In this document: positions 10,679-58,137 of the stretch, one piece after another | How the letters are laid out: each line of letters opens with the position of its first letter | Position numbering within the stretch: position 1 is the stretch's first letter | NCBI RefSeq assembly: GCF_900009135.1 | Contig: NZ_LT797699.1 | Span: 57,447 to 118,881, forward strand | Reading direction: 5' to 3' | Origin: Planktothrix sp. PCC 11201 | GTDB taxonomy: Bacteria > Cyanobacteriota > Cyanobacteriia > Cyanobacteriales > Microcoleaceae | DNA: 61,435 nucleotides | Translations under genes and position numbers: made by a program | Notes under the pieces: model-generated | Databases searched by the model: none | Told to the model about the DNA's origin: nothing | What the model saw: only the letters and a program-made list of their open reading frames with translations

Positions 10679-11929
10679 CTATTCCCTATTATGATTTACT
10701 TCCTGGTAAAACGGTAAAGTCATTGTAAAATCGCTTCCCTCTCCCACCTCAGAACTACAGGTTAGGGTTCCCCTGTGTTTATCAACAATGATAGCATAGG
10801 TAATTGCTAATCCTAAACCCGTGCCTTGTCCCACAGGTTTTGTGGTAAAAAATTGGTCAAAACTACGACGGATTACTTCCCGTGACATCCCAATTCCATT
10901 GTCACCAATATTAATCGTTAATTGAGATTTATCGGTGTTAGGTTCAATTTTAATAGTGATTTTGGGGACAAATTTATCCTCTGTGATGGGCTGATTTTTT
11001 AACATTGCGACTTTACTCTCAATGGCATCAATAGCATTATTCAATAAGTGAATAAAAACCTGATTAATTTCACCAGCATAGCATTCAATAGTCGATAATT
11101 TATCGTAGTCTCGAATCACTTGAATTTCAGGACGATGAGAAGTAGGTTTGAAACGATGACTTAATAGCATTAATGTACTTTCAATTCCTTCTTTGAGGTC
11201 TACGGTTTTTAATTGTGCTTCATCCAGTCGAGAAAAAACCCGTAGAGATCGGACTAAATCTCGAATTCGATTTGCTCCTACTTCCATTGAGGATAAAAGG
11301 TGGGGAAGGTCATTTTTCAAAAATGCCAAATCAATTTCTTCAGACCATTGTTCAAGTTCAGGAATATTAGGGGGAAGATACTGTTCATAAAGTTTAATAG
11401 TTTTGAGTAAATCTCCCACATATTGTTGAGCATAAAAGATATTTCCGTAAATAAAATTAATCGGATTATTAATTTCATGGGCTACTCCCCCGACTAGTTG
11501 ACCCAAAGAAGACATTTTTTCCGTTTGAATTAACTGAAGCTGCATTTTTCTTAATTGTAAATGCACATTAATTCGGGCTAATACTTCTTCCGGTTCGATG
11601 GGTTTAGTAATATAATCTACTCCTCCCACTTGTAACCCTTTTACTTTATTCACCAAGTCACTTAAAGCCGTCATAAAAATTACGGGAATATCCTTCGTTT
11701 TAGGATTATCCTTTAACTGACGACAGGTTTCAAACCCATCAATTCCCGGCATCATCACATCTAATAAAATTAAATCCGGTAAAGTTTCTTGCAGTTTTAG
11801 TAAAGCATTTTCCCCACTTTTGGCAATAGAAACTCTAAAGCCAGATTGATTCAAAATATCTAATAACAGCTTAACATTCGTCAAATTATCATCAACAATT
11901 AAAATAGAATGGGAATAGGAATTTTTCAT
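10679..11929 (-). CDS. receiver plus histidine kinase
   Basis: 416 residues. An N-terminal receiver (ILIVDDNLTNVKLLLDIL, phosphoacceptor in LILLDVMMPGIDG, Lys in YITKPIEPEE) is followed by a short linker, an H-box VGGVAHEINNPINFI, an N-box LLNNAIDAIES, and G boxes DNGIGM and GTGLGLAI. There is no membrane segment, so it is cytoplasmic. The receiver probably takes phosphate from a partner and gates the kinase. It begins 3 nt after the hybrid kinase gene upstream on the same strand, so they are cotranscribed and are likely one phosphorelay. Confidence 0.92.
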   Translation of the reverse strand: MKNSYSHSILIVDDNLTNVKLLLDILNQSGFRVSIAKSGENALLKLQETLPDLILLDVMMPGIDGFETCRQLKDNPKTKDIPVIFMTALSDLVNKVKGLQVGGVDYITKPIEPEEVLARINVHLQLRKMQLQLIQTEKMSSLGQLVGGVAHEINNPINFIYGNIFYAQQYVGDLLKTIKLYEQYLPPNIPELEQWSEEIDLAFLKNDLPHLLSSMEVGANRIRDLVRSLRVFSRLDEAQLKTVDLKEGIESTLMLLSHRFKPTSHRPEIQVIRDYDKLSTIECYAGEINQVFIHLLNNAIDAIESKVAMLKNQPITEDKFVPKITIKIEPNTDKSQLTINIGDNGIGMSREVIRRSFDQFFTTKPVGQGTGLGLAITYAIIVDKHRGTLTCSSEVGEGSDFTMTLPFYQEVNHNRE

Positions 11930-11932
11930 AGA

Positions 11933-14710
11933 TTATTGATTATTAATATAAGGTTGAATAAATTGGATAATTTGTTCATCGTCAAAGGCTTCAGCCAATT
12001 GAATCATATAATCAGCAAAAGCAGTATATTGAGTATCTAACTGTTTAATCCGATTTGCTTCATTTTGAATATCTAAAATGTAACCTCCTTTGGCAAAATC
12101 ATACAAGCTGATCAATTCTTGAGAAGGAGGAATCATTAAGGAATTAACGGATACAGGTATTTTTGATTGGTCTATTATTGGTTCTGAATTTTCATAAATC
12201 CAAGTTAATTTTAACCCTTCTTGCAATTGACGGAATAAAATTTCCTCTTGTATGGGTTTGGCCAAAAAACCATTGCAACCTGCCTTTAAACATTCTTCTT
12301 GATCCGCACTAAATACGGAAGCAGAAGAAGCAATAATTACCAGATCGGAAAATTCGGGATCATTTCTTAATTGTCGAGTCATCTCTAACCCTCCCAAAAT
12401 GGGCATATTTAAATCCGTGATAATTATATCAGGATACCATTCACGCACTTTTTCTAACCCTTCTTGTCCTTGAGTTGCTTCAATGACTCCAAAACCAAGG
12501 GGTTCTAACAAATTAACCAGAACAGATCTATTTTCCCAGCGATCATCTACAATCAAAATGGTCTGTTTTTCTCCTTCATAACCGATCATTTTTTGTGAAG
12601 TTTTAGTTTTATGAAGCGGTTGATCTTTGGCTGCGGGTAAATTGATATCAAACCAGAATTTGCTCCCAACTCCTGGAATACTTTCAACGTTAATCTTGCC
12701 TGCCATCATTTCTACAATTTGATGACTAATAGCTAATCCTAATCCCGTACCTTCAGCTTTACGGGCGTGTTCTCCCACCTGTTCAAAGGGTAAAAATATT
12801 TTTTTAATTTGTTCTGTATTCATCCCCACTCCGGTATCCTCAACTTGAAATCTTATTGTATATATTTTGATAGAATCAGATTCGATTAATTCCGATAAAA
12901 CCTGCACTTGAAAACAAACTGACCCGGTATCAGTAAATTTAATGGCATTACCTAATAGATTTAATAAAACTTGACGTAACCGTTTCTCATCGGCATGAAT
13001 AACTTTAGGTAAAGGAGTTAGAACTTGATAATTAAATTCTAATTCTTTTTGTTCAGCTTTTAGACGACAAACTTCACTAATTCCCCATAAACAATGTTCT
13101 AAATTAAAATCTACGGGATAGAGTTCTAGTTTCCTGGCTTCGATTTTAGAAAAATCCAAAATATCATTAATTAGAGTCAATAAATGAGAACCACACTCAT
13201 AAATAATATGCAGTCCTTGCAGATGTTTGGGAGTTAGATTCGGTTGTCGTTGTAGAATTTGAGCATAGCCTAAAATCCCATTTAAGGGAGTGCGAAGTTC
13301 ATGACTCATATTAGCCAAAAATTCACTTTTAGATTGGTTAGCAGATTCGGCATCTTCTTTCGCGGTTTGGAGTTGTGCTGTACGTTCTTCTACCCGTTGT
13401 TCTAAAGTTTCATTGGAAGTGGCTAAAATCGTAAAGGATTGTTGTAATTGTTGAGCCATTTGGTTAAAAGAATCTCCCAGAAGCATAATTTCTTTAATGC
13501 CCTTAATCCGAATTTTTTGTCTGAGATTTCCACTGGCAATTTCCCGAGAAGCAATACTCAAACGCATAATTTTTTGCGTAATCCAATGGGAGGTTAATAG
13601 TCCAAATACTATGGCAACTCCTACAGCAATTAAACAAAGAATAATGGTTTTTTGAGTATTCGCATTAATTTGACCCATGAAATCAGATTCAGGAATCACC
13701 ACCACAATTAACCAATCTAAACCCCATGGATCTTTCCAAGGACTAATTTTAACAAATTGATCTTGATGATTAATTGAAATTTGTAAAGAATGCTGCTCCA
13801 TGATGGAGCTAACCTGACCCAATTTTTGAGTTAAAGCATTAAAAGTTTCTCGAATAATGATATCTTGACTTTCCGCAGCCCTGAGTCGTTTTGCCACACC
13901 TTCTACCATTTTATAAGGTGGTTTTGAGGATGAACTTGCCACCACCAGTCCGTTTCGTTCTAAAATAAAAATTTGCCCAGATTCACCTACTTTTAAATTT
14001 TTTAAAAACTCACTAATTTGTGATAAACGTAAATTAGAAACCAGAACTGCGATTAAATTATTTTGATCATTATAGAGGGGATAACTCGCAGAAATAGAAA
14101 TAATATCAGGAAAATTATCCCAGTGATAAATTTGACTCCAAATCGGTTTTTTTGCCTGAACTGCATCGGTATAGGCAGCTTCACCTCGAGGATTATAATT
14201 ATCATAGGATGCCATCAATTTAGTTCGATTGCCCTGGGCATCTGTGGCGTAAGTATTGGCTCGACCTTGGGTTTGAGGAGAAAGTTCATCAATAGTAGCT
14301 TTATTCAAATCTAAAAAATATCCGGCTCCGGCATATTCTCCCGAGGGTAATACATAATAAATATAACCTACATCAAAGGCTTGAAGTTGTCTCCAAAAAT
14401 ACTGACTAACCTCTGGAAACTTTTGCAGATCCAAGAATCCCAATTTCACCGCATCCGAATTAATTTGATTAATTTGATGAGGTGTAGAAAGATAATTATT
14501 TAAATGTTGTTCTACCCGAGAACTGACTTCATTTTCGATTTCTTGGGCTAGTTCCCTAATGGCTTTTTCTCCATGACGAAAGGCTAACCAACCTGTCAAA
14601 CCGACAGCAATAAAAATTTCTAATAAAAAAGGAATAACCAATACCCAACTTAGGGGTATTCCTTGGGATTTATGAGATCGACGAAACAGGGGAAACAATG
14701 ATGATATCAT
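11933..14710 (-). CDS. membrane hybrid histidine kinase with Cache-like sensor
   Basis: About 925 residues. A first membrane helix (about 15-40) and an extracytoplasmic Cache-like domain (to about 350) are followed by a second helix, a HAMP domain and a coiled coil. HisKA follows with His about 470 ([13 protein letters not shown]), then HATPase ([15 protein letters not shown]), a receiver ([13 protein letters not shown]) and an alpha-helical tail. It is a diverged paralogue of the kinase array at 36-48 kb and its sensor most resembles the one at 38862. The ATG at 14710 is preferred to an in-frame TTG two codons earlier. Operon partners are the dihaem cytochrome upstream and the receiver-kinase downstream. 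Confidence 0.9.
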
Positions 14711-14764
14711 ATTCAATTGGGGTGATAATTTGAGGATGAAACTGGAGTCATAAAAACCGTTAGC

Positions 14765-15337
14765 TTAAGGGGAATTTTGCCACTCTGGTGTTAAGCTGCG
14801 AAAGTCAAATTGCGATGCACCTGGATGACAACTCACACAACTATTCACCGTCAGAGGTTGGGAAAGATCAACCCGGGGATGGAGGGCCTTAAAATAACGG
14901 GAACGATTAAAACGATAGGGGATGGTCTCATCCTTGAGGGCAATGGGACGGGAATAGGTTTGGAGATATTTCCACATTAACAATAATGATGGCCCTTCCA
15001 AGGGTTGCAGCATCGCACCATAATGTTGTGGATCTTGAATCACTTGCTGCCAAGTTTGGGTGGGAAAGACTTGGGGAGGAATCGGAATATGACAGCTTGA
15101 ACAGGTGTTGAGATAAATTTCATATCCCAGTTTATATGCGGGTTGAATACTGTCCACACTCCCGATCTGATTGGGGCTGGGGGCGTTTTCAGCCAGGACT
15201 ATTGGGGAGACTAGGGGGGGTGTTTGTGTTATTCCCAAGGCAATACCGATACTCCAGATACCGACTATTAGAATTAATACCCAGGAAGGAGAGCGTCCCT
15301 TTTGCTTTTGAATTCTGTTTTGACTTAAAAAACCCAT
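14765..15337 (-). CDS. membrane-anchored dihaem cytochrome c
   Basis: 190 residues, with an N-terminal hydrophobic segment (SWVLILIVGIWSIGIALGI) serving as signal or anchor, and two CxxCH haem c motifs: CSSCH in the first third and CVSCH near the C-terminus. Spacing and length resemble the dihaem cytochrome c (DHC) family. It would be periplasmic or lumenal and carry electrons. It is followed 54 nt later on the same strand by two kinases, hinting at a redox input, but no biochemical link can be read from sequence. Confidence 0.82.
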   Translation of the reverse strand: MGFLSQNRIQKQKGRSPSWVLILIVGIWSIGIALGITQTPPLVSPIVLAENAPSPNQIGSVDSIQPAYKLGYEIYLNTCSSCHIPIPPQVFPTQTWQQVIQDPQHYGAMLQPLEGPSLLLMWKYLQTYSRPIALKDETIPYRFNRSRYFKALHPRVDLSQPLTVNSCVSCHPGASQFDFRSLTPEWQNSP

Positions 15338-15409
15338 AACCAAGACAAATGATCTGGCAACATCACTGAAATCCTAGCTCAGATTAGCACTGTCTTTGGA
15401 GAATGTCAG

Positions 15410-35379: not shown

Positions 35380-36090
35380 ATGAAATCGGGAGTTATCCTA
35401 GGATTAGTAGGTTTTCTCTCCTATCGCAGTGGACAAGAAGCCATAGAAGGCCTGGTCATATCTTTGATGACAGAAATAGGCGATCGCATTGAACAAAACT
35501 TAAACAGCTATCTCAATGAACCCGAACAATTTACTCATATTAATGCTTCCCTCATCCGTCAAAGAATTTTAGATTACCAAAATTTAGCAACCTTACAAAC
35601 ATACTTTGCCCAGCAATTGCAAATTTTTCCTAAAGTCAGTGATATGTTACTTGCTAACGAACGTAAAGACTATGTAGAGGTTTCACGACATAAATCAGAT
35701 CAACTGACTAAGCTGTTGAGCATTTAAACTGTATATTTTAGAGGCTGAAACCCCTTACTGGCTTGGATCGTCTCGAAAATTTAGATAATTAACAGCTTAT
35801 TAGAATTTTGAATGCTACCAAAAGCAAAAACTTCTATCATTACACAGCCTATTTTGACCCCTTCCCCAGATCACGAAATAACTTTAGATGCTTTAAAAGT
35901 CATGTCTAAGGACTGGATTGATCAACTTTATAAAGCGGCGCTTGAAGCTGATATTCAAGTTGTGATGGGATTAATTACAGAAATTCCAGACACAGAGATG
36001 AATCTAATACAATTTCTCACAAAAGCAGTGCGGAAATTTCAATTTGAACAGATCATTGATTTAGCCAATCCTTTAATAAAACATGATTAA
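35380..36090 (+). pseudogene. remnant of a hybrid histidine kinase (N- and C-terminal pieces)
   Basis: The first piece (35380-35727, 115 residues) starts inside the first membrane helix (LGLVGFLSYRSGQEAIEGL) and matches the beginning of the sensor of the kinase at 38862. The second piece (35812-36090, 92 residues) matches the receiver-distal tail of the kinase at 45420 closely in DNA as well (for example CCCCAGATCACGAAATAACT is shared). The middle, some 2.1-2.3 kb with sensor, HAMP, kinase and receiver, is deleted. Its last codons still overlap the start of the next kinase in ATGATTAA, exactly like the intact copies. The C-terminal piece may still be translated and so keep that start coupled. 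Confidence 0.85.
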
Positions 36091-38869
36091 CCAGCATCCC
36101 AGTACACCAAAAAAAAATAGACAGATTCCCCTGAAATTAGTGTTAATTATCCCCTTTGTGTTGCAAATTGTGGGGGCGGTGGGATTGGTGGGTTATTTTT
36201 CCTATCGCAGTGGACAAAAAGCGGTAGAAAATATGGCGGATCAGTTAATGAATCAGGCAACCAATCGAGTACAGGATCACCTGAACATATCCCTGGAAAC
36301 TTCACAGCAAACCATAGCGGTTAATTATCGTGCCACTCAAGGGGGTCGCCTGAATATCAAGGACTTTGAGTTAATCCGTCAGCACTTATGGGAACAGATT
36401 AATTTAGCTCCAAGATTGGCGATCACTTCGTATATTAATGAGCAAGGAAAACAAATCGGTTATGGACGGATCATCAACCAAGAATTTGTTGAATTAGCCC
36501 AAAAACTAACGGCGGAAAAAGATATCCAGATTGGCACACTTTTCTTATATGAAGTGAGTTCTACACAGAAAAAAATACAGAATCAATATTTAGTAGATCA
36601 AGACGGTAAGCCTGGCAAACATACTTATTCAGTGCCTGTTGATCATACGGTAGCACCCTGGTATCTACAGGCCAAAGTCGTTAAAAAACAAACTTGGTCA
36701 AAAATTAATGTTTCCAAAATTGCCCCATCATTGACTATCAATGCCGTATTTCCTATTTTCGATGGGGGTGGAAAATTTCAAGGTGTTTTTAACTCTAGTT
36801 TAATGTTGTCGGATATTAGCACTTTTTTAAATCAATTACGATTCTCACCATTGGGGCAAAGCTTTATCATAGAGCGTTCTGGTGATCTCGTCGCCACATC
36901 TACATTGGAGCGTCCTTTTGTAAATCTGAGCAATAAACCGCTTGCTCGTTTACCTGCGACTGAAAGTCAGAATGGATGGACAAAGGCGATCGCGATTCAC
37001 CTGAAACAGCAATACCAAGATTTAAGCCAAATTCAAAAGAATTCACACTTTCAAGTCCCTGTTAAAGGAAACACACTCTTTACCCAAGTTGTACCTTATC
37101 AAGATAAATATGGTTTAGATTGGCTGCTGGTGACGGCGATCCCCCAGTCTGACTTTATGGGAAAAATTAATGCTAACACCAAAATCACAATTTTACTTTG
37201 TTTATTGACTTTAGGAATTGCTACAGGATTAGGAATTATTGCCTCAAATTTAATTACTACACCGATTCAAAAATTAAGTCAAGCGAGTTGGGCGATCGCT
37301 GAGGGTGAACTAAGTCAAGTTATAGAAATTCACGGGGTTTCTGAATTAGAAACTTTGGCTGATTCTTTTAATCAGATGGCGAGTCAATTACAAACCTCTT
37401 TTGAAACCTTAGAACATCGGGTCAAAGAACGCACAGCAGAATTAGCAATTGCCAAGGAAAAAGCGGAGGTAGCGAATCAAGCCAAAAGTACCTTTATTGC
37501 TAATATGAGTCATGAGTTGCGATCTCCTTTGAATGCGGTTATCGGTTTTTCTCAATTAATGTTACGTTCTAATAATCTCCCATCAGAACAATATGAAAAT
37601 ATAGGTATTATTTATCGCAGTGGAGAATACTTACTAACATTAATTAATAATATTTTGGATTTATCCAAAATCGAAGCTGGGAAAGAAACACTTAATCCCA
37701 AAGATTTTGACCTGTATAGATTGCTAAATGATTTAGAAGATATGCTGCATCTGCGGGCTACAAATGCCGGATTAAACTTGCTTTTTCAGCGCCATAAAAA
37801 TGTCCCTTGCTATATCTGCACCGATGAAGTTAAACTCCGTCAGGTGATCATCAATTTACTTAGTAATGCCATCAAATTTACCTCGGAAGGTCAAATTATT
37901 CTCTCAATTTTTCGAGGCGATCAAGAAACAATAGATATTTTTAATCTCCATTTTCGGATTCAGGATACTGGAGTAGGAATTGCCGCCGCAGAATTACCCC
38001 AACTCTTTGATGCTTTTACCCAAGCTCAAGCCGGAAAAGAGATACAGGAAGGAACTGGTTTAGGATTAGCAATTAGTCGGAAATTTATTCAACTGATGGG
38101 TGGGGATATTTCCGTTGAAAGCGAATTAGGAAAAGGTACAACTTTCCAATTTTATATTCAAGTAAGAATGAGTCAAGAAACAGTCAACAAGAGTACAGAA
38201 AATCCTCACCAAGTTCTGGCTTTAGCTCCGGGTCAACCCACCTATAAAATTCTCACCGTCGATGATAAACCGATTAATCGTCAATTACTAATTAAATTAC
38301 TCATTCCGTTAGGATTTGAGGTAAAAGAAGCTAGTAATGGACGAGAAGCGATCGCCATTTGGGAGGAATGGGAACCCCATTTAATTTGGATGGATATGCG
38401 AATGCCTGTGATGGATGGTTATGAAGCCACAAAATATATTAAATCGACTACAAAAGGCAATGCTACGGCGGTAATTGCCTTAACAGCTAGTGTATTAGAA
38501 GAAGAAAAAGCCATTATCTTATCAGCCGGATGTGATGATTTTCTCCGTAAACCATTTGTAGAACACACTATTTTTGAGGCTCTAGCTAAACATTTGGGAG
38601 TGGATTATATTTATGCAGAAACACAACCAGTTTTGCATATTATTCCCAAACAGAAGTTAATTTCAGAGAATTTAAAAATCATGTCCTCTGAATGGATTGT
38701 TCAACTCTACAAAGCAGCATTAGAGGCAAACCCTACTCGAGTTTTGGAATTAATTGAAGAAATTCCATCCGCCGAGATTGATCTCATACAATTTCTAACA
38801 AAGGTCGTGCGTAAATTTCAATTTGAGCAGATAATTGAATTAACCGAGTCTTTAATAAACCATGATTAA
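36083..38869 (+). CDS. hybrid histidine kinase, array copy 1 (subtype A)
   Basis: 928 residues. Membrane helix about 18-38 ([20 protein letters not shown]), Cache-like outer sensor to about 355, second helix, HAMP and coiled coil. HisKA His477 ([13 protein letters not shown]), HATPase (N-box [26 protein letters not shown]), receiver Asp771 ([11 protein letters not shown]), and an 85-residue helical tail. There is no output domain. Its start overlaps the tail of the remnant. It shares subtype-specific kinase segments ([15 protein letters not shown]) and sensor sequence with the copy at 41638. The ligand is unknown. Confidence 0.93.
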
Positions 38870-41645
38870 CCCTAGTCCCAAGACCGTCAAAAAAAACAGA
38901 CAAATTCCCCTGAGATTCGTGTTAATTGTTCCCTTTGTGTTGCAAATTGTGGGAGCCGTAGGATTAGTCGGTTATTTATCATATCGTAGTGGACAGGTGG
39001 CTGTTGAGAAACTGGCTGATAAATTGATGACACAGACCAGTAAGCGTATTGAACAACATCTTAATAGTTATTTAGGTAAAGCTCGAGAAATCAATCGTAC
39101 CAATGTTGATGCTTTCGAGTCAGGAATATTGAATTTGAATGATTTTAATGCTATTGGAAAATACTTTTACCACCAGGTAAAAACCTTCAATTTTACGACA
39201 GTTGGTTTTAGTAAGGATAACGGAGCTTATATCGGTGTGAGTCGTCGTCAGATGAAGAATAAAAATGAGTTTGGACTTGATGAACGGTTATCTAATAACA
39301 GTGTACATCGTGTCTATTCAGTTGATAGCCAAGGTAATCGTCTTAAGGTTATAAAGTTAATTCCTCACAGTCCAACATCGATACCTCCGAAAAAATTTGC
39401 TTGGTATGTAGATGCCGTTAAAGCTGGTAAACCCATCTGGAGTTCTATTTATGGCTGGAATACTGGACATGACATTATCGCAATTGCAACCAGTACCCCC
39501 ATCTATAACCCACAAAAAAAGCTGCTCGGTGTGTTTGGTATTAATTTAGATCTATTGCTGATTAGTGACTTTCTAAAAACCTTAAGTAACAAACAATTAG
39601 AACATATCTTCATTGTAGAACCGTCAGGATTAATGGTTGCTAGTTCCGACAATGAATCCCCTATTAATGAATCTCCGAGTTCTAAACCTGTTTATCGGGT
39701 CAAGGGTAACGTCACCATCACTCGACTGAATGCAGTTGATAGTCGTAACCCAATTATCCGTGAGGTAACACAGTATTTAATCCGAGAATTTGGCAGTTTA
39801 CAGGCGATTAGTAAGCCCCAATTACTCCGTCCTAAGATCGATCAAAATCCATTTGTGAGAGTGATTCCTTACCGGGATTCCTTGGGTTTAGATTGGCGTG
39901 TGGTCATTGTTGTTCCTGAATCGGAATTTCTAGCAGAAATTCAGGCGAATACCCAGATAACAATTTTCCTTTGTTTATTCACTTTAATCCTGGCGACTGG
40001 CTTAGGAATTATCACCTCAAATTTAATTGCTAAACCGATTCATGACTTAATTAAAGCTAGTCGTGCCATCACTAGTGGTGAACTCAATCAGGTTGTAGAA
40101 ATCAAAGGTGTTTCTGAATTAAAGACTTTGGCAGATTCATTTAATCAGATGGCGATTCAGCTACAAACCGCATTTGAAACCTTAGAAAATCGGGTACAGG
40201 AACGTACAGTCGAGTTAGTCATTGCCAAGGAAAAAGCCGAAGTTGCTAATCAAGCCAAAAGTACCTTTATTGCCAATATGAGTCATGAATTGCGATCGCC
40301 GCTGAATGCTATTTTAGGCTTTTCTCAATTGATGGTAAGAAACTCCAATCTTTCCTCTGATCAATATGAAAATGCCGGAATTATCTATCGCAGTGGTGAT
40401 TATCTATTAACCCTAATTAATAATATTCTGGATTTATCTAAAATAGAAGCGGGAAAAACTAGCCTAAATCCGAGTGATTTTGACCTGTATCAGTTGTTAG
40501 ATGATTTAGAAGATATGCTCAATTTACGAACTAGTAATGCTGGATTACAATTGATCTTTCAACGAAGTGAAAATGTTTCTCGCTATATCTGCACCGATGA
40601 AGTTAAATTGCGTCAAGTCTTAATTAATTTACTCAGTAACGCCATTAAATTTACCCGAGAAGGGGGGATTACTTTAACAATTAATCAACAGGAAGAAGAC
40701 TTAACAGATATTATCATACTTAACTTTACAGTCCGGGATACTGGAGTGGGAATTGCCGAAGCTGAATTACCCAAACTTTTTGAAGCCTTCACCCAAACCC
40801 AAGCCGGAAAAGAAGCCCAAGAAGGCACGGGTTTAGGATTAGCCATTAGTCAGAAATTTGTGCAGTTGATGGGGGGAGATATAACCGTAGAAAGTCAACT
40901 GGGTCAGGGCACAACCTTTTCATTTCAAATTCAAGCCAAACCGGGTCAAAATATCAACGATGAACCGACTAAAACCCGACAAAAAGTATTAGGATTAGCT
41001 CCCAATCAACCGACTTATAAAATTCTAACCGTTGATGATAAAGAAATTAATTGTCAATTATTAGTTAAACTGTTAGAACCCTTGGGATTTGAGATCAAAA
41101 TAGCCCGAAATGGAAAAGAAGCGATCGCAATATGGGAGGAATGGGAACCCCATTTAATCTTTATGGATATGCGAATGCCAGTGATGGATGGATATGCAGC
41201 GACTAAATATATTAAATCAACCACAAAAGGCAATGCCACGGCTATAATTGCCTTAACAGCTAGTGTTTTAGAAGAAGAAAAAGCCGTTGTATTATCAGCC
41301 GGATGTGATGATTTTATTAGAAAACCTTTTACAGAAAATAATATTTTTGATACCCTGGCTAAACATTTGGGTGTAAAATATATTTTAGTGGCAACGAGTT
41401 TACCTCCATTAGATAATTCAGCAGAAAGCAACTTGAGATCGCAACACCTCGTATTTATGCCTAGAGAATGGATTATTCAATTACACAAAGCTGCTCTTGA
41501 GGCTAATACCAACCTCGTTTGGCAACTGGTAGGAGAAATTCCAAAAACAGAAACTTGTTTGATACAATCCCTCACAAAAATTGTGCGTAAATTCCAATTT
41601 GAACAAATTATTGAATTAACGGAACCTTTAATCAGCCATGATTAG
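38862..41645 (+). CDS. hybrid histidine kinase, array copy 2 (subtype B)
   Basis: 927 residues with the same domain order as copy 1: helix, Cache-like sensor, helix, HAMP, HisKA His475, HATPase, receiver Asp769 and helical tail. Its sensor ([20 protein letters not shown]) differs from copies 1 and 3 and is closer to the separate kinase at 11933. Its transmitter ([27 protein letters not shown]) is closest to the copy at 45420. The start codon lies inside the last codons of copy 1 (CATGATTAA), implying coupled translation. Confidence 0.93.
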
Positions 41646-44412
41646 CGAATATTCAAAATCTCCACAAATTCCCTTGAGATTAGTGTTAATTGTCCCCTTT
41701 GTGTTGCAAATTGTCGGCGCAGTGGGATTAGTTGGTTATTTGTCCTATCACAGTGGACAACAGGCTGTAGAAAACTTAGCCAATCAGGTGATGGATCAAG
41801 CAGGAAATCGGATTAACGATCACCTCGATCATACCTTAGAAATTCAAAGGCAAACCGTAGCAGTTAATTATCAAGCTTTCCAACAGGGTGTGATTAACCT
41901 GAATGACTTTGAATCCCTGCGGAAGTATTTTTGGCAACAGATCAATTTATCTCCCTCTCTCACATTAAATATGTTTGCCAATACCCAAGGAGAAATGATT
42001 TCCTATCAACGCATTCTCAGTCCAGAATTTTTAGCTGTAACCCGTCAGTTAAGCGGGGAAAATCTGCAAAAAGGGACAGTATTTTTTCAAGAAAATCGGC
42101 TACCAGACATTAAAAACCGTAAATACTATCTATTGGATTCTCAAGGTAAAAGTAAAAAATTAGTCAAGTTTCAGGCATTAGTAGATACACGAGAAACGGC
42201 TTGGTATAGGGATGGCAAAGTAGCGATTGGACAAACTTGGTCGCAGATTTATGCTTATAAAGTACCCCTTCTCTTGGGAATAAGTGCTATCGTTCCAGTT
42301 TATGATGCTCAGGGAAAATTTCAAGGTGTTTTTAATAGTGGCATAACTTTAGATGGAATTAGTACATTTCTAAATAATCTAAAATTTTCGCCTTTAGGAC
42401 AAACATTTATCCTTGATCATGGAGGTGATTTAGTTGCAACTTCAACCCTAGAAACTCCCTGTCTTAAGGATAATCAAGGAAACCCAATTCGCTTACCTGC
42501 GATTCAAAGTCAAGATGCTTGGACAAGGGCGATCACTACTTACCTCAAGCAACAATATGGGAATTTTAATCAGATTCCCAAAAACCTACAATTCAGAGTG
42601 GCAGTTAAGGGAAATACCCTATTTGCTAAAGTTTTATCTTATCAAGATCAATATGGACTGGATTGGTTACTGGTGACAGTAATTCCCGAATCTGATTTTA
42701 TGGAAACCATTAATGTCAATACCAAAATCACGCTTTTTCTTTGTATATTAACTTTAATGATTGCCACAGTTTTAGGAATCATTACCTCCAATTTAATTGC
42801 TGCACCAATTCAGCGATTGAGTCAAGCAAGTCGGGCGATCGCTGATGGTGAACTGAGTCAAGTTGTAGAAATCAAAGGTGTTTCTGAACTAGAAACCTTA
42901 GCAGATTCTTTTAATGAAATGGCGAGTCAGTTACAAACCTCTTTTGAAACCTTAGAAAATCGGGTACAGGAACGTACGGCAGAATTAGAAATTGCCAAAG
43001 AAAAATCTGAAGTTGCGAATCAAGCCAAAAGTTCATTTATTGCTAATATGAGTCATGAATTGCGATCGCCCCTGAATGCCGTTTTAGGGTTTTCCCAATT
43101 AATGCTACGCGCTACCAACTTACCCCAGGAACATCACGAAAATGCAGGCATTATTTATCGCAGTGGTGATTATCTATTAACGCTGATTAATAATATTCTG
43201 GATTTATCCAAAATCGAAGCCGGAAAAACCACCTTTAATCCTCGATATTTTGATCTGTATTATCTACTGGATGATTTAGAAAATATGCTACATCTACGAG
43301 CAACATCTGCGGGATTGACACTGATTTTTCAGCGTCATGAAAATGTTCCTCATTATATCTATACCGATGAAGTTAAACTGCGTCAGGTAATCATTAATTT
43401 ACTCAGTAATGCCATTAAATTTACCTTAGATGGTCAAATTATTCTCCATGTTTTTCGGGGAGATCAAGAAACAATCGATATTTTTAATCTGCATTTTTGT
43501 ATTCGTGATACTGGAGTAGGAATAGCCCCGGAAGAATTACCCAAGCTGTATGATGCTTTTTCTCAAGCTAAAGCTGGGAAAGAATCGCAAGAAGGAACGG
43601 GTTTAGGATTAGCAATTAGTCGGAAATTTATCCAATTAATGGGGGGAGATATTTCTGTTGAAAGTGAATTAGGAAAAGGCACAACCTTTCAATTCTATAT
43701 TCAGACGAAATTGGGTCAAGAAATCGTTAGCAAGAGTACAGAAGACCATCCCCAAGTTCTGGCTTTATCTCCGGGTCAACCCACCTATAAAATTCTCACT
43801 GTTGATGATAAAGAAATTAATCGTAAATTATTAATTAAGCTGTTAGAACCGTTAGGATTTGAGGTAAAAGAAGCAGGTAATGGACAAGAAGCGATCGCCA
43901 TTTGGGAGGAATGGGAACCCCATTTAATTTGGATGGATATGCGAATGCCTGTGATGGATGGTTATGAAGCCACCAAATATATTAAATCTACAACTAAAGG
44001 CAATGCTACGGCGGTAATTGCCTTAACAGCTAGTGTTTTAGAAGAAGAAAAAGCCATTATCTTATCAGCCGGATGTGATGATTTTCTCCGTAAACCGTTT
44101 ACAGAACACACTATTTTTGAGGCTCTATCTAAACATTTGGGAGTGGAGTATATTTATGCAGAAATACAACCAATTTTGAATAGTAGTCCCAAACAGAAGT
44201 TAATTTCAGAGAATTTGAAAATTATGTCCTCTGCATGGATTACTCAACTCTATGAAGCAGCATTAGAGGCAAACTCTACCCAAGTTTTAAAATTAATTGA
44301 AGAAATTCCATCCGCCGAGATTGATCTCATACAATTTCTAACTAAGGCAGTGCGGAAATTCCAATTTGAACAGATAATTGATTTAGCCGAACCTTTGATC
44401 AGCAATGATTAA
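41638..44412 (+). CDS. hybrid histidine kinase, array copy 3 (subtype A)
   Basis: 924 residues. The sensor and transmitter follow copy 1 ([29 protein letters not shown]); HisKA His473 and receiver Asp767 are intact. It overlaps copy 2 by 8 nt in ATGATTAG. Its own end retains ATGATTAA at 44405, which opens an 11-codon frame ([10 protein letters not shown], stop) running into the next gene's start. This looks like the vestigial first codons of a fourth unit now replaced by the binding-protein gene. Confidence 0.93.
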
Positions 44413-44429
44413 AAAATATCGCTTATACT

Positions 44430-45410
44430 ATGCTTAAACTCCTTAGATACATTAGTGTTTTTCTGATTACCGTCTGTTTGCTATTTGCTTGTAATACTTC
44501 AGCACCGACCCAATTAAAACTCCCTCCTTTGAAAGTACAATTTACATCTTTTGTTGGGGAGCATTCAGGCATCATTGCTCAAGAAAAAGGATTCTTCAAA
44601 GCCCAAGGGGTAGATGTGGAATTAATTTATAAACGATACATCCAATTAGAAATAGCAAATTTCAGTGCGGGTAAGTATGATGGCATGGTATTGACCTTGG
44701 GAAGTTTTATCAACTTGAGTGCCACAAATCCAGATATACAAGCTGTGGTGGTTATAGATGAATCAACAGGAGCAGATGTGGTAGTCGCCCAATCACAAAT
44801 TAAAACCGTCGCTGACTTGAAAGGGAAAAAGTTGGGTGCAAATCTAGGCGGTTTTAGCGAAATTTTCGTGACTGAAATGTTGAAAACTGCCAACTTAACC
44901 AGCGATGATGTGAACTTAGTTAAAGTAGAGGCTTCAGAAATTCCTCAACGCCTAAAAGATAATGCTATTCAGGCCGGACACACTTGGGAACCCCATCTTT
45001 CTGAAGCCATTAAATCAGGGGGACATATCCTATTTACCAGCAAACAAACCCCTGGCTTGATTTTAGATCTGATTGTCTTTCGGAGTGAGATCATCCGCGA
45101 GCGCCCCGAAGAAGTTCGGGCATTTGTACAAGGATGGCTACAAGCCTCTGCCTACTGGAAAGCAAATGTTCAGGAAGGAAATGCTATCATCAGTAACGCA
45201 TTAAAAATTCCTCGCAATACAATCTCTCTGGAGGGAGTAAACCTAACTAATTTAGGTGAAAATCAAAAATTATTTCAATCTAGCAACCCTAACTCCATTT
45301 ACAAAACTGCCAAGATATATGCAGACTTTTTTATTCGCTCTGGAAACGTGACGCGCATTCCTGAGCTAAAGGGTTTGTTCAATTCTTCTTTCTTAAACCC
45401 TCCCTCGTAG
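44430..45410 (+). CDS. orphan NMT1/SsuA-like substrate-binding lipoprotein
   Basis: 326 residues. A lipoprotein signal (VFLITVCLLFAC, Cys21) is followed by a periplasmic binding fold of the NitT/TauT type: VQFTSFVGEHSGIIAQEKGF, FKAQGVDVEL, and TVADLKGKKLGANLGG. Such proteins bind nitrate, sulfonates, pyrimidine precursors or similar small anions. No permease or ATPase gene is adjacent. The gene lies between kinase copies 3 and 4, 9 nt before copy 4, so it more likely delivers a ligand signal to that kinase than feeds a transporter. The ligand cannot be read from sequence. Confidence 0.88.
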   Translation: MLKLLRYISVFLITVCLLFACNTSAPTQLKLPPLKVQFTSFVGEHSGIIAQEKGFFKAQGVDVELIYKRYIQLEIANFSAGKYDGMVLTLGSFINLSATNPDIQAVVVIDESTGADVVVAQSQIKTVADLKGKKLGANLGGFSEIFVTEMLKTANLTSDDVNLVKVEASEIPQRLKDNAIQAGHTWEPHLSEAIKSGGHILFTSKQTPGLILDLIVFRSEIIRERPEEVRAFVQGWLQASAYWKANVQEGNAIISNALKIPRNTISLEGVNLTNLGENQKLFQSSNPNSIYKTAKIYADFFIRSGNVTRIPELKGLFNSSFLNPPS

Positions 45411-45419
45411 TTTAAAGCC

Positions 45420-48077
45420 ATGCAGCACCACCTTTTGGGCGGTATCCGTACAAAGTTGATCGCTTCCTTTCTGATTGTTGCTTTGAGTCCGTTGCTGTTA
45501 TTGGCATTTCTCAACAAACAGACAACTGAAAAAGCCCTTACTGACAACGCCAAACAAGCCCTATCTGGAGCGGCTAACGAAACCGCTAACAGAATAGATG
45601 CCTTTATCGATGGAAATCTCAATGCCGTGCGCGTAGAGGCGCTTTTACCAGGTTTGGCACGCTACCTCAGCCTAACTCCAAAGCAGCGAAATGACAGCCT
45701 CGAAATGCAATTGGCGGCAGAAACATTAATCCGTCTCAGTCGCAAAGATATGGTCAATATTCTCTCATACTCTTTGCTTGATTTAACCGGGAAAAATGTA
45801 TTAGATACACATACATCAAACATTGGCAAAGATGAATCGGGTCAAGATTACTTTGAAAAACCATTGCAAACAGGATTATCCTTGGTTTCTAGCATGAAGC
45901 GATCGCCGACAATTCCTGACCTTGTAACGCTCTTTTTTAGCAGTCCAGTTCGCAATGCTAAGGGAGATATATTGGGTGTCTTGCGTGTTTCATATAATGC
46001 TACTGTTGTTCAACAGTTAGTAACTCGACAAACTGAACGGGCTGGGGCAAAATCCTTTGCTATTCTGTTAGATGAAGATGATATTTATTTGGCACATAGC
46101 ACTGCACCAGAACTGCTTTTTAAATCAATTGTGCCTTTGCCTGCCGATATTGTAACTCAACTGCAACGGGAAGGGCGTTTGTCTAATTCCCCTGTCAAGG
46201 AATTGGCAACTAATGAGCCAAAAATTAAGCAAGCATTGGATCAGAAACAGTCCTATTTAATTGCATCTTTGGCAGCAACAGATAATCAGGTTAATCTGAT
46301 TGCGATCGCTCGTTTGCAATATAAACCTTGGTCTGTGTTGTTCGCCCGGCCCCTTGCTGTTGCCCTAGCACCCGTAGAAAAGCAAATTCGTGATGCAATA
46401 TTTCTATTTGTATTGATCGCGGGAGTAGTGACAATCATCGCTTTTGCCACTGGGCAACTGCTAACAAAGCCAATAATTTACCTTACCAATATAGTTTTTC
46501 AGTTTACCGAAGGTAACTTAAATATCCGCGCCGAAATTAATTCAAAAGACGAAATAGGTCAACTGGCAAAATCGTTTAACAACATGGCACTTAAGTTACA
46601 AACATCTTTTGAAACCTTAGAAAATCGTGTAGAAGAACGCACAGCCGAGTTAGTCATTGCTAAGGAAAAAGCCGAAGTTGCTAATCAAGCCAAAAGTACC
46701 TTTATTGCCAATATGAGCCATGAATTGCGATCGCCTTTGAATGCAATTTTAGGCTTTTCTCAAGTCATATTAAGAAGCTCCGATCTCCCCCTAAAACAAT
46801 TAGAAAATGTCGGCATTATCTATCGGAGTGGTGACTATCTATTAACCCTAATTAATAATATTCTGGATTTATCTAAAATTGAAGCGGGAAAAACCACATT
46901 AAATCCGAGTGATTTTGACCTGTATCGGTTATTAGATGATTTAGAAGATATGCTCAATTTACAAGCTAGTAATGCCGGATTAAAATTAATCTTTCAACGG
47001 AGTAAAACCGTCCCTCGCTATATCTGCACCGATGAAGTTAAATTACGTCAGGTGTTAATTAATTTACTCAGTAATGCGATTAAATTTACTAAAAAAGGTG
47101 GTATTAGTTTAACGGTGGATAAACAGGAAGACGAATCAACGGATATTATCATTCTTAACTTGAAAATCCGCGATACGGGAGTGGGAATTTCTGAGGCAGA
47201 ATTACCCAAACTATTTGAAGCCTTCACCCAAACCCAAGCCGGAAAAGAAGCCCAAGAAGGCACGGGTTTAGGATTAGCTATTAGTCGGAGATTTGTGCAG
47301 TTGATGGGGGGAGATATTACCGTAGAAAGTCAACTGGGTCAGGGTACAACCTTTTCATTTCAAATTCAAGTCAAACCGGGTCAAAATATTCAGGATACAC
47401 CGACTAAAACCCGAAAAAAAGTATTGGGTTTGGCTCCGGGTCAAGTGACTTATAAAGTCCTGACTGTTGATGATAAAGAAATTAATTGTCAATTATTAGT
47501 TAAACTTTTAGAACCCTTGGGATTTGAGATCAAAATAGCACAGAATGGAAAAGAAGCGATCGCAATATGGGAGGAATGGGAACCCCATTTAATCTTTATG
47601 GATATGCGAATGCCGGTGGTGGATGGATATGCAGCGACTAAATATATTAAATCAACCACAAAAGGCAATGCCACGGCTATAATTGCCATAACAGCCAGTG
47701 TATCAGAAGAAGAAAAAGCCATTGTATTATCGACGGGATGTGATGATTTTATTAGAAAACCCTTTACAGAAGATCTGATTTTTGGGGTTCTAGCTAAACA
47801 TTTAGGGGTAAAATATATCTTGCACCAAACACAGCCTATTTCGACTCCTTCCCCAGATCACGAAATAACTTCAGATGCTTTAAAAATAATGTCTAAGGAC
47901 TGGATTGAGCAACTTTATAAAGCGGCACTAGAAGCTGATGTCCAAGTTGTAATAGAATTAATTACAGAAATTCCAGACACAGAGATGAATCTAATACAAT
48001 TTCTAACTAAGGCAGTGCGGAAATTTCAATTTGAGCAGATAATTGATTTAGCCGAGCCTTTAATCATCAATGATTAG
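45420..48077 (+). CDS. hybrid histidine kinase, copy 4 with a different sensor
   Basis: 885 residues. The N-terminal part ([20 protein letters not shown], then a dCache-type domain to about 315) is unrelated to the other copies. After a second helix ([18 protein letters not shown]) and HAMP, from about residue 395 ([12 protein letters not shown]) the protein and DNA become nearly those of copy 2: HisKA His434, HATPase, receiver Asp728 ([11 protein letters not shown]) and tail. The tail also matches the remnant at 35812. It probably pairs with the lipoprotein encoded just upstream. It ends in ATGATTAG like the other copies. Confidence 0.93.
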
Positions 48078-56878: not shown

Positions 56879-58137
56879 AATTGCCGATTACCCTGAACAA
56901 CGTGCTTCAGGGTCATTAAGGCTTCTAAACCAATTAATCCCCGACGATACCCTTTCTGGTTAGAAATTCCCAGAAAGATTGCGTCTCCTCGGTTCAAGTG
57001 ACGGGAAAATCGGGGAGACGCATTAATAAAAGTCAAAGCACTATTAACATCCTGGGCAAATTTTCGACTCTCGGAATAGGATTCGGTGGCTAAACAGTTC
57101 GCGTGACCGCTACTATGGGTATTCATCCAAATAATCGCTTGTTCTAAATGATCTACCCTTTTAAAAGCAACGGTGCGAGTTAAATAGGGTCTTGACCATT
57201 CCGTTGTTTCCGCTAAGATCAATTCCGAAAATTCTTGAGCGAACCCTTCATCTCCTCGCAGTTCAAAGCCAGCTTCTCTTAAGTTATTCCATAATCGCAC
57301 TAGGGATGAGCTTTTTTGATTGGGATCAATCAGAACTTTTTCAATGGCATTCACGGCATCCGGTTTACCATCATGACTATCTAAGATCATCCATCGGGCT
57401 GTATCCACACTTGCCGTAGATGACCAATATAAATAACAATTTCCTATGGCGGAGCGCAACACCGGAACTGTGGATTGATTCACCACTTGTTGCACAAAAT
57501 GGGGGCGTCCGTAGGGAATGACTAAATTGATATATTTGTCTTGAGTGATTAACTGTTGAATCGGGGTATGGGGTTCTGACGGTAAGATTTCTAAACAGCC
57601 TGGGGGGAGTCCCGATTCCTCTAAGGCGATTTGCAAGGTTTGAATAATCATCTGATTAGAATGGGTGGCTTCTGTTCCACCTAGTAGCACTAAACTATTG
57701 GCGGTTTTTAAACAGAGTCCCGTGGCAATAGCCGCCAATTCGGGAAAGGCTTCATAAATTAACGCCACTACCCCCAGGGGAATTGGTTGAAAATAGGTTT
57801 GTCCCTGTTCGAGTTGATAGGAAGCACTCATCACCCGACCAATGGGATCGGGCAGTTGTCCCAGACGCTCTAAAATTTGAACGGTGGTTTCTAAGCGTTC
57901 TGGAGTGAGTTTCAGCCAGTCGGTGATTAATTCCGATAGTCCTAGGTTGCGACTGGCTTCTAGGTCAAGAGTATTGGCTTCTAGGATGTCATTCTGTCGC
58001 GATCGCAAGGCCTTCGCCATCAGTTGCAAGGCGAGACTTCGATCTGCTCCTTTGGTTTTGGCTAATTCAAAACTAGCAAGGTAAGCACGACGCAAAGGAT
58101 TGTCGGTCGGAAGGAGAGAGAAATCATCAATTATCAT
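56875..58137 (-). CDS. proA: ProA-like protein lacking the usual catalytic cysteine
   Basis: 420 residues of the glutamate-5-semialdehyde dehydrogenase fold (proline synthesis): PLGVVALIYEAFPELAAIAT, LLGGTEATHSN, VIPYGRPHFVQQVV, and the C-terminal NRGDAIFLGISNQKGYRRG. The expected SxCNAxE active-site stretch reads PDAVNAIEKVL, with Val262 where the cysteine should be. Other residues of the site also drift (RSAIGNCYLY). Cyanobacteria can have two ProA paralogues, so this may be the divergent or inactive one; the gene symbol indicates family only. Confidence 0.8.
   Translation of the reverse strand: MIIDDFSLLPTDNPLRRAYLASFELAKTKGADRSLALQLMAKALRSRQNDILEANTLDLEASRNLGLSELITDWLKLTPERLETTVQILERLGQLPDPIGRVMSASYQLEQGQTYFQPIPLGVVALIYEAFPELAAIATGLCLKTANSLVLLGGTEATHSNQMIIQTLQIALEESGLPPGCLEILPSEPHTPIQQLITQDKYINLVIPYGRPHFVQQVVNQSTVPVLRSAIGNCYLYWSSTASVDTARWMILDSHDGKPDAVNAIEKVLIDPNQKSSSLVRLWNNLREAGFELRGDEGFAQEFSELILAETTEWSRPYLTRTVAFKRVDHLEQAIIWMNTHSSGHANCLATESYSESRKFAQDVNSALTFINASPRFSRHLNRGDAIFLGISNQKGYRRGLIGLEALMTLKHVVQGNRQF

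Follow-up and report, generated by a model that had tools for sequence, protein, structure and literature searches.

How does a run of neighbouring hybrid histidine kinases with closely similar signalling halves come to carry sensors as different as those found at one locus of Planktothrix sp. PCC 11201? We analysed a stretch of 61,435 nucleotides (the window) from this genome (assembly GCF_900009135.1, here G000; 5.99 Mb in 103 contigs), which corresponds to positions 57,447 to 118,881 of contig NZ_LT797699.1 (C17 below). Between positions 35380 and 48077 it holds a decayed kinase remnant, four intact hybrid histidine kinases (c1 to c4, numbered 5′ to 3′) and, before c4, an orphan binding protein gene (SBP), all on the forward strand and all as described in a first-pass annotation of the window. 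That annotation saw two alternating subtypes, A and B, and took the array to be the product of duplications of a two-gene A–B unit. We find instead that the sensors and cores of these kinases have different histories. The kinases are mosaic, with histories that often break near the HAMP/HisKA junction and sometimes further in, and the explanation we consider probable overall is a tandem array in which sensor halves and core halves have evolved separately.

Each intact copy consists of dCache, HAMP, HisKA, HATPase and REC domains followed by a C-terminal tail (c1, 36083..38869; c2, 38862..41645; c3, 41638..44412; c4, with a distinct dCache sensor, 45420..48077), with transmitters of type A in c1 and c3 and type B in c2 and c4. 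By Pfam, HisKA, HATPase_c and Response_reg score above cutoff in all four, and dCache_1 lies over its curated cutoff in c2 and c4 and under it in c1 and c3. The phosphoacceptor His, the HATPase_c motifs and the receiver Asp, switch Thr and Lys are present throughout, as in other hybrid histidine kinases; the catalytic motifs are intact and kinase activity is predicted. At the remnant/c1 (ATGATTAA), c1/c2 and c2/c3 junctions the stop lies within the following start in an 8-nt overlap, an arrangement that suggests translational coupling and makes the remnant look like the former first gene of the row. Gaps of 17 nt to c3 and 9 nt to c4 enclose the SBP gene (44430..45410).

The alternation holds in one part of the proteins, the ATPase domain and the linker behind it. 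Amino acid identity over these two regions is 88% and 68% between c1 and c3 and 86% and 82% between c2 and c4, compared with 69–72% and 43–50% for the four cross pairs. It fails in the sensors, where c1 and c3 are 56% identical, c1 and c2 39%, c2 and c3 42%, and c4 only 14–18% identical to any other copy, its putative B partner c2 included (14%). It fails again in the tails, which are 80% identical between c1 and c3 and 88% between c4 and the remnant, while that of c2, thought to be B-type, is 59% identical to c4 and 57–61% to the A copies. The receivers, held to be almost identical in all copies, range from 79 to 95% over the six pairs and still sort by subtype (c1–c3 95%, c2–c4 90%, cross pairs 79–85%). 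The motif ascribed to the c1 and c3 sensors is indeed common to both, though it sits in the ATPase domain and differs slightly (NKST in c1, SKST in c3); of the motifs proposed for the B set, PTKTR.KVLGLAP occurs in c2 and c4, and c4 has IIILNL in place of IIILNF. As for the remnant, its 3′ piece (35812..36090) is a kinase tail with 88% amino acid and 88.4% DNA identity to that of c4, which bears out an assignment to B for this half. The remnant lacks a transmitter, and for its sensor half the B label is wrong: the 5′ piece (35380..35727), a pseudogene with stop codons behind it, is the truncated start of a transmembrane, dCache-like sensor of another lineage, 66–73% identical in amino acids to kinases of an acs locus (81–84% in DNA to the four tested) and 37% to c2. 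Taken across the domains together, then, the A and B pairs expected from separate domain trees do not hold, and the alternation is best read as the trace of gene conversion and sensor exchange rather than of pair duplication.

Synonymous sites give different ages to the two halves of c4 (dS by NG86, with G000 as the reference in each pair; G001–G009 are the other genomes of the genus, and the names rnj, dapA, asd, adhE-like, rpiA, acs and TPR gene were assigned by recognising the sequences, without a family search). Between G000 and G007, dS is 0.27 for rnj, 0.25 for dapA, 0.31 for asd and 0.31 for a GGDEF gene discussed below, compared with 0.16 for SBP, 0.18 for the c4 sensor and HAMP, and 0.44 for the core. 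Between G000 and G008 the values are 0.71 for rnj, 0.64 for the TPR gene and 1.2 for the GGDEF gene, as against 0.12 for SBP, 0.165 for the c4 sensor and 0.56 for the core, and identity at four-fold degenerate sites is 89% for SBP and 87% for the sensor compared with 48% for rnj. Even against the Nostocales strain LEGE 12452, where rnj is saturated (69.5% DNA identity), SBP and the c4 sensor both stand at 0.30, with the core at 1.25. Four-fold identity falls at the HAMP/HisKA boundary of c4 from 87 to 58% against G008 and from 76 to 30% against LEGE 12452. From this contrast we delimit a putative mobile unit, 44417..46607, from about 13 nt before SBP (an edge taken from the G008 junction) to the end of HAMP at c4 codon 396; its dS is 0.12–0.19 among G000, G007 and G008 and about 0.30 to LEGE 12452, while that of the attached HisKA–HATPase core is 0.44–1.26. 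SBP and the c4 sensor thus share a recent history, younger than the species that carry them and unlike that of the attached cores, which suggests that sensors, here with SBP, spread horizontally while cores were homogenised locally. Slow sensor evolution was ruled out as the source of the likeness: the four-fold sites are alike too, and dN/dS in SBP and the matching sensors (0.23–0.35) is higher, not lower, than the 0.05 of rnj and the 0.08–0.17 of the remaining reference genes, so that constraint is no explanation.

The other copies yield further ages. Between G000 and G006 the c1 sensor (dS 0.215) is about as diverged as rnj at the same site (0.235), so that this sensor appears vertically inherited, and the core behind it stands at 1.09. 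Between G000 and G005, c3 has a dS of 0.19 over codons 1–290 and 0.31–0.35 in the core, with rnj at 0.64. In the MASE1 kinases HK816 (G000) and HK817 (G006) it is the sensor that is old (0.70, compared with 0.27 for the core, 0.39 for the GGDEF gene and 0.235 for rnj), as if the sensor had been changed over a core of roughly species age. Judged by four-fold identity, the c1 and c3 sensors (52%) parted at roughly the time of the earliest divergences within our sample of the genus (rnj 47–52% for G000–G005, G000–G008 and G007–G008).

The breakpoints can be located in the DNA. Compared with the G006 copy at the same site, c1 is 90% identical in amino acids over sensor and HAMP, 73–83% over the core and 63% over the tail. 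In 60-codon windows of DNA this amounts to 90–96% over sensor and HAMP, apart from 83% at the very start (92% for the sensor as a whole, compared with 56–82% beyond it), and to 64–81% over most of the core and tail, with 86–90% at the end of REC; in most windows of core and tail other copies are nearer. The best single break by the maximum chi-squared (max-chi2) method is codon 448 (37424..37426), in the HAMP/HisKA linker, with the left side like G006 and the right like c3; its value of 287.3 was reached in none of 2000 permutations, the highest of which gave 18.1. For c3 the comparison with G005 shows 92% DNA identity over codons 1–290, 65% over codons 291–436 (42508..42945, distal sensor and HAMP; dS 1.1) and a mostly G005-like core. 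This foreign patch is closer to c1 (78–86% in windows over codons 331–450), and so is the 3′ tract comprising the end of REC and the tail (43888..44409), which is 91–97% identical to c1 in windows from codon 751 and alike at four-fold sites. The c4 sensor is 90–92% identical in amino acids to those of G007 and G008, and c2 becomes its nearest relative only between about codons 571 and 780, one of these two genomes being nearest upstream of that. The best c4 break, codon 409 (46644..46646, about c2 codon 450), again lies in the HAMP/HisKA linker (max-chi2 285.5 against G007 and 379.1 against G008), though its left side is trivially one-sided since the c2 sensor cannot be aligned, and the fall in synonymous identity is the better evidence. 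All nine max-chi2 runs exceeded all 2000 permutations, and six of the best breaks lie between the end of HAMP and the start of HisKA (c1 448, G006 451 and 434, c4 409 twice, G008 398 in its own numbering), the other three being codons 395 (c1 against UBA9251), 297 (c3) and 514 (c2). The four runs with alignable sensors on both sides break at 448, 451, 395 and 297.

Trees of the separate domains disagree with one another. They were built from 44 sequences picked from the matches, leaving aside more distant ones such as L014–L020, L036 and L042–L051. The sensor tree has 26 rows and covers neither MASE1-type nor c4-type sensors nor short pieces, the c4 sensor being too divergent for placement; the core trees, after removal of five distant kinases and of rows filled to less than 60%, have 35 (HisKA), 34 (HATPase), 34 (REC) and 35 (tail) rows. 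Among the sensors, c1 groups with G006 and UBA9251 (100/99) and c3 with G005 (97/98), these two clades being joined at 100/100, and c2 pairs with an unlinked paralogue from its own genome on contig C29 (100/100; 88% amino acid identity over the sensor). UBA9251 itself is apparently not a member of the genus, one common gene being 64% identical in amino acids compared with 96–97% for G001, G007 and G009. The nearest relative of every array sensor is found outside the array. In the HATPase tree, by comparison, c1 joins c3, G005 and the A genes of G002 and G003 (99/96), while the G006 gene that bears the c1 sensor falls among the B copies and the core of the G008 c4 gene groups with the B genes of G002 and G003 (90/96). 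Using groups named from the sensor results before the HATPase tree was seen, the approximately unbiased (AU) test on this domain rejects a clade of c1 and G006 (p 0.0019), of c1, G006 and UBA9251 (p 0.0002) and of the four c4 orthologues (p 5e-6). The cores of c2 and c4 pair at 92/76 (HATPase) and 98/86 (REC), and the tails of c4 and the remnant at 99/96. The HATPase bootstrap is not fully settled, and the HisKA, REC and tail trees contain many open forks, so we place weight on the HATPase tree together with the nucleotide windows.

That cores are copied between neighbours is suggested by c1 and c3, whose four-fold identity rises along the gene from 37% in the middle of HisKA to 62% in HATPase, 79% from the linker to REC and 87% in the tail (41, 39, 48 and 23 sites). 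Likeness of several ages along one core argues for conversion and not for one duplication. An independent instance is found at the acs locus of G007 (L058:5972-16969), where four tandem kinases, the first with a MASE1 sensor by Pfam and the other three with dCache-like sensors by alignment, have sensors 13–82% alike and receivers 99.7–100% identical in DNA. This locus has undergone concerted evolution.

Genes of the family also occupy different chromosomal sites in different species. On one side the array is bordered by rnj, which dapA and asd precede, and on the other by a convergent adhE-like gene. We found rnj in nine of the ten genus genomes (the exception being G004, which is 73% complete); downstream of it there are kinase clusters in G000, G006 and G007 and a REC-tail fragment in G009, and none of the array's kinase family in the stretches fetched from G001, G002, G003, G005 and G008. 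The second site, rpiA, was found in all ten genomes, though in G004 the stretch ends there, so that its neighbours are out of view. Beside it are HK816 and a GGDEF gene in G000, an A–B–GGDEF set in G002 and G003 (with A interrupted in G003), SBP, c4 and GGDEF in G008, and in G005 a c3-like kinase, a REC-kinase, a tail fragment and GGDEF; there is none of the family beside rpiA in G001, G006 or G007, and only a short fragment in G009. The c3-like genes, the SBP–c4 pair and the MASE1-kinase–GGDEF genes therefore sit at rnj in some species and at rpiA in others. The spacer that separates c3 from SBP has the same sequence as the one in front of SBP in G007, where a MASE1-type kinase precedes it, and the final coding bases before it are nearly identical; in LEGE 12452 a vestige of a kinase tail can be seen by eye ahead of SBP. 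Contig C29 of G000 has a second small array (L021:8626-14832), with a c2-like kinase 83% identical to c2, a neighbour kinase that a transposase gene of IS630-like (DDE_3) type interrupts, and an adjoining P450 gene. An A-type kinase of G003 is split by an IS605/TnpB-type gene next to an open reading frame of 132 residues (L054:5430-9995), and in G008 a repeat-rich insertion of GATCCCCCTAAATTCCCCTT units lies between SBP and the c4-type kinase (L059:6005-6290). The kinase fragments of G009 (L209:7315-7716 at rnj, L235:6468-6752 at rpiA) seem to be what is left of decayed arrays, in a species that also lacks the GGDEF partner.

This partner, a REC-PAS-GGDEF protein, is the candidate output of the array. 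A single orthologue (81–100% amino acid identity) is present in eight of the ten genus genomes, each time within a kinase cluster or next to one, in relatives usually 3′ of the last kinase with an overlap of 11 or 29 nt (by mechanical reading-frame starts); in G005 a kinase-tail fragment rather than a kinase overlaps it, and the same genome has an additional REC-kinase variant of it (73% over part). Domain assignments come from Pfam for two proteins, with a weak PAS match, from BLAST likeness for the rest, and by eye for L096 and L100. It was not found in G001 and G009 at E 1e-80, and a kinase search at E 1e-200 gave one piece of an acs-locus kinase in G001 and no kinase in G009. Between c1–c4 and HK816 the phosphoacceptor helix hardly differs, which is compatible with a common partner but is no proof, as most of the family has it. 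The most likely role of the array would be that of interchangeable sensors feeding one cyclic di-GMP (c-di-GMP) output; the suggestion of the first-pass annotation that different sensors may feed one downstream partner is kept as a possibility.

The mechanism we envisage is as follows. Sensor halves (transmembrane segments, dCache and HAMP, and for c4 the SBP gene as well) would arrive from other lineages through horizontal transfer, or from another place on the chromosome, while the halves made up of kinase, receiver and tail would be mostly resident and copied between neighbours, giving the alternating subtypes. Since a sensor in the array is flanked by homology, with the core and tail of the preceding gene in front and its own core behind, homologous recombination could replace it and retain the output interface. 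All the kinases would act on the one REC-PAS-GGDEF diguanylate cyclase, so that several inputs led to a single c-di-GMP output, and SBP would present a ligand (sulfonate-, taurine- or pyrimidine-like, or other) to the c4 dCache domain. A more specific form of this we offer only tentatively, with a little less than even confidence: that the arrays are sensor-exchange loci, in which an SBP-plus-sensor cassette of about 2.2 kb passes from species to species, having crossed from one order to another at least once, and joins in frame to resident cores whose fit to the single c-di-GMP-making output is maintained by conversion.

Duplication of an A–B unit, with the binding protein inserted later before the last B, accounts for the alternation in HATPase domain and linker and for the 8-nt overlaps at three junctions, and a two-gene A–B pair does exist in two relatives at rpiA, as an A–B–GGDEF operon in G002 and, its A gene interrupted by an IS605-type element, in G003. 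Yet the sensors indicate that the array was not built from one: the nearest relatives lie outside the array, c2 and c4 share 14% of sensor residues, the remnant's sensor is of neither type but of a third lineage, and the sensors of c1 and c3 parted at about the age of the genus. Moreover, the likeness of c1 and c3 is of differing ages within one gene, and the c2 tail is not B. We consider this origin improbable. Still less credible is serial duplication of a single kinase with fast sensors under selection, slow cores and no exchange between lineages. It fits the tandem order with its repeated junctions and the elevated dN/dS of the sensors and SBP, and sensors generally diverge faster than cores. 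Here, however, the gradient is reversed, matching sensors being more alike between species than cores at synonymous sites too, and substitution is unlikely to have produced MASE1 and two very different dCache types from one sensor. An assembly artefact of near-identical repeats is the least believable account of the mosaic; a draft of 103 contigs with tandem repeats that reach 97% identity in some windows would invite one, but the array copies differ by at least 7% in DNA in every domain, whereas stretches without any difference are what a chimeric assembly would leave. The array also lies within a contig of 200 kb, and similar mosaics occur in other assemblies.

Closer to the separate evolution of sensors and cores is a scheme in which whole genes, with SBP, were transferred and resident paralogues then overwrote their 3′ halves, no sensor cassette ever having moved alone. 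It predicts the same chimeras and draws on the local copying seen at the 3′ ends of c1 and c3 and in the cores of c2 and c4, on the c3 genes of G000 and G005, which are young in both halves, and on c4, which stays like G007 through the middle of HisKA. Against it, c4 drops at HAMP/HisKA in comparison with both G008 and LEGE 12452, with different cores behind the drop, and this would take repeated overwriting that halts at about the same place; we regard it as a real, if not the favoured, alternative. A comparable standing, short of likely, belongs to the idea that each of the four kinases is insulated from the others and has a regulator of its own, their shared core reflecting mere common descent. 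The receivers still sort by subtype (79–95%) and the GGDEF partner of G000 is on another contig, as this idea would have it, while the phosphoacceptor helix shared by all copies and the GGDEF-linked HK816, for all that most of the family has it, and the upkeep of likeness among neighbouring receivers speak for a common partner.

Several observations weigh against the combination of exchanged sensors, resident cores and one output. Five of the nine max-chi2 runs include one unalignable sensor, so that their left sides are trivially one-sided. Against G007, four-fold identity of c4 in mid-HisKA is 74%, equal to the rnj level, and it drops only later (HATPase 64%, REC 58%); identity between c2 and its C29 paralogue falls gradually (77, 67, 54 and 52%), so that the edge differs from place to place. 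In the HisKA tree c1 falls, with weak support, beside UBA9251 and LEGE 12452 and away from c3; in the REC tree neither of these two copies has a settled position. The entry of a cassette into a resident gene and the entry of a whole gene followed by 3′ overwriting are not distinguishable as orders of events, and the c2 and c4 cores are compatible with one shared B ancestor and a later change of sensor. In G000, which is a draft of 103 contigs, the GGDEF partner lies off the array, on C29 beside HK816, and there are two weaker partial relatives of it (51 and 54%). Finally, transfer between orders rests on a single contig, L094 of LEGE 12452 (7,963 bases, coverage 5.3). We examined contamination by Planktothrix as a source of this contig and found it unlikely, though this is a single case: its flanking gene was not found in the nine Planktothrix genomes searched (G000 included, G004 outside the search), is present in G020 itself and is matched by a homologue at 58% in G021, a Nodularia genome, and by trinucleotide make-up the 4.6-kb flank is at a distance of 0.11 from the LEGE rnj locus and 0.25 from the window.

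The binding protein is an SsuA/NMT1-type lipoprotein (PF09084, E 1.6e-22; lipobox by eye), with SsuA, THI5 and a taurine-binding protein as relatives in the PDB. It scores 130.4 bits (E 7.7e-38) against TIGR01728, under the cutoff of 163.5, and its neighbours are c3 and c4 and not a permease or ATPase, so that it does not look like part of an SsuA-type ABC importer. The gene adjoins a c4-type sensor in G000, G007, G008 and LEGE 12452; close SBP homologues (90–100%) occur in three of the ten genus genomes and the c4 sensor in two of the nine relatives, which are the same genomes. By adjacency and co-inheritance, c4 is a candidate SBP-coupled kinase. LuxP–LuxQ and TorT–TorS are SBP-dependent kinases of this kind, in which a periplasmic binding protein stands beside a hybrid kinase as here, where c4 may sense through SBP; they differ in that our case combines an SsuA/NMT1-type protein with a dCache sensor as its putative binding partner. 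The scores of the core against the TorS and LuxQ models stay under the respective cutoffs, and a PDB sequence search with the c4 sensor gave no match at E 0.01. Protein change is fast in the mobile part (44430–46607 and orthologues, dN/dS 0.23–0.35).

A known pairing of hybrid kinase and GGDEF regulator is CdgK–CdgS of Anabaena PCC 7120 (All2875–All2874), which, as PMC9927289 describes it, are cotranscribed, the cyclase activity of CdgS increasing upon phosphorylation. The likeness is by description; according to the same text CdgK has CHASE, PAS and GAF sensors and two receivers and required an Hpt, unlike c1–c4, which have one receiver, a tail without a conserved His, and a location away from the GGDEF gene. 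An Hpt in the tail was considered and dismissed: Pfam gave no Hpt match in the c1–c4 proteins, and no invariant or near-invariant tail His is seen in 46 aligned REC-tail sequences. The modelled c3 REC-tail (window 43792-44409; pTM 0.57) has a small helical domain as its tail (pLDDT 89–95 over residues 141–200), and with no conserved His in it a CdgK-like relay through an Hpt is not expected. Our best guess is direct transfer from HisKA to the regulator, the kinase's own receiver acting as competitor or brake. This tail, which has no Pfam match, occurs in many cyanobacterial hybrid kinases.

Differing sensors on similar signalling halves are also known from the group A Tlp chemoreceptors of Campylobacter (Tlp2–4 and 11), for which PMC6433261 reports very similar C-terminal halves and extensive recombination; the array paralogues resemble them in both respects. 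The Tlps, as described there, are chemoreceptors, some of which bound large invertible segments, while the array is a row of hybrid kinases in which the gene for a binding protein travels with the sensor. In a survey of myxobacterial two-component systems domain shuffling is called rare, with domain loss followed by gain suspected (PMC4603909). The gain of new input domains by old transmitters is common to both cases; here the DNA itself shows paralogues exchanging parts. Neither the array nor an SBP–sensor transfer is described in the titles and abstract openings of the open-access matches listed. We see here a clean, dated example of a known process, whose unusual feature is that the SBP gene moves together with the sensor. 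Sensor shuffling is normally inferred from distant comparisons; this locus offers close relatives of both halves, breakpoints at the nucleotide level, a synonymous-rate clock and the accompanying SBP gene, and suggests a bacterial way of plugging new senses into an existing signalling pathway. If the exchange-locus proposal is right, the array would be a combinatorial input panel in which the probes change and the wire stays fixed; if the output is shared, it would show bacteria adding senses without new pathways and give naturally tested fusion points for sensor engineering.

Elsewhere in the window, a further dCache hybrid kinase is encoded on the minus strand (10679-14716); it is followed by a REC-HATPase gene and preceded by one for a dihaem cytochrome c (14765-15343).

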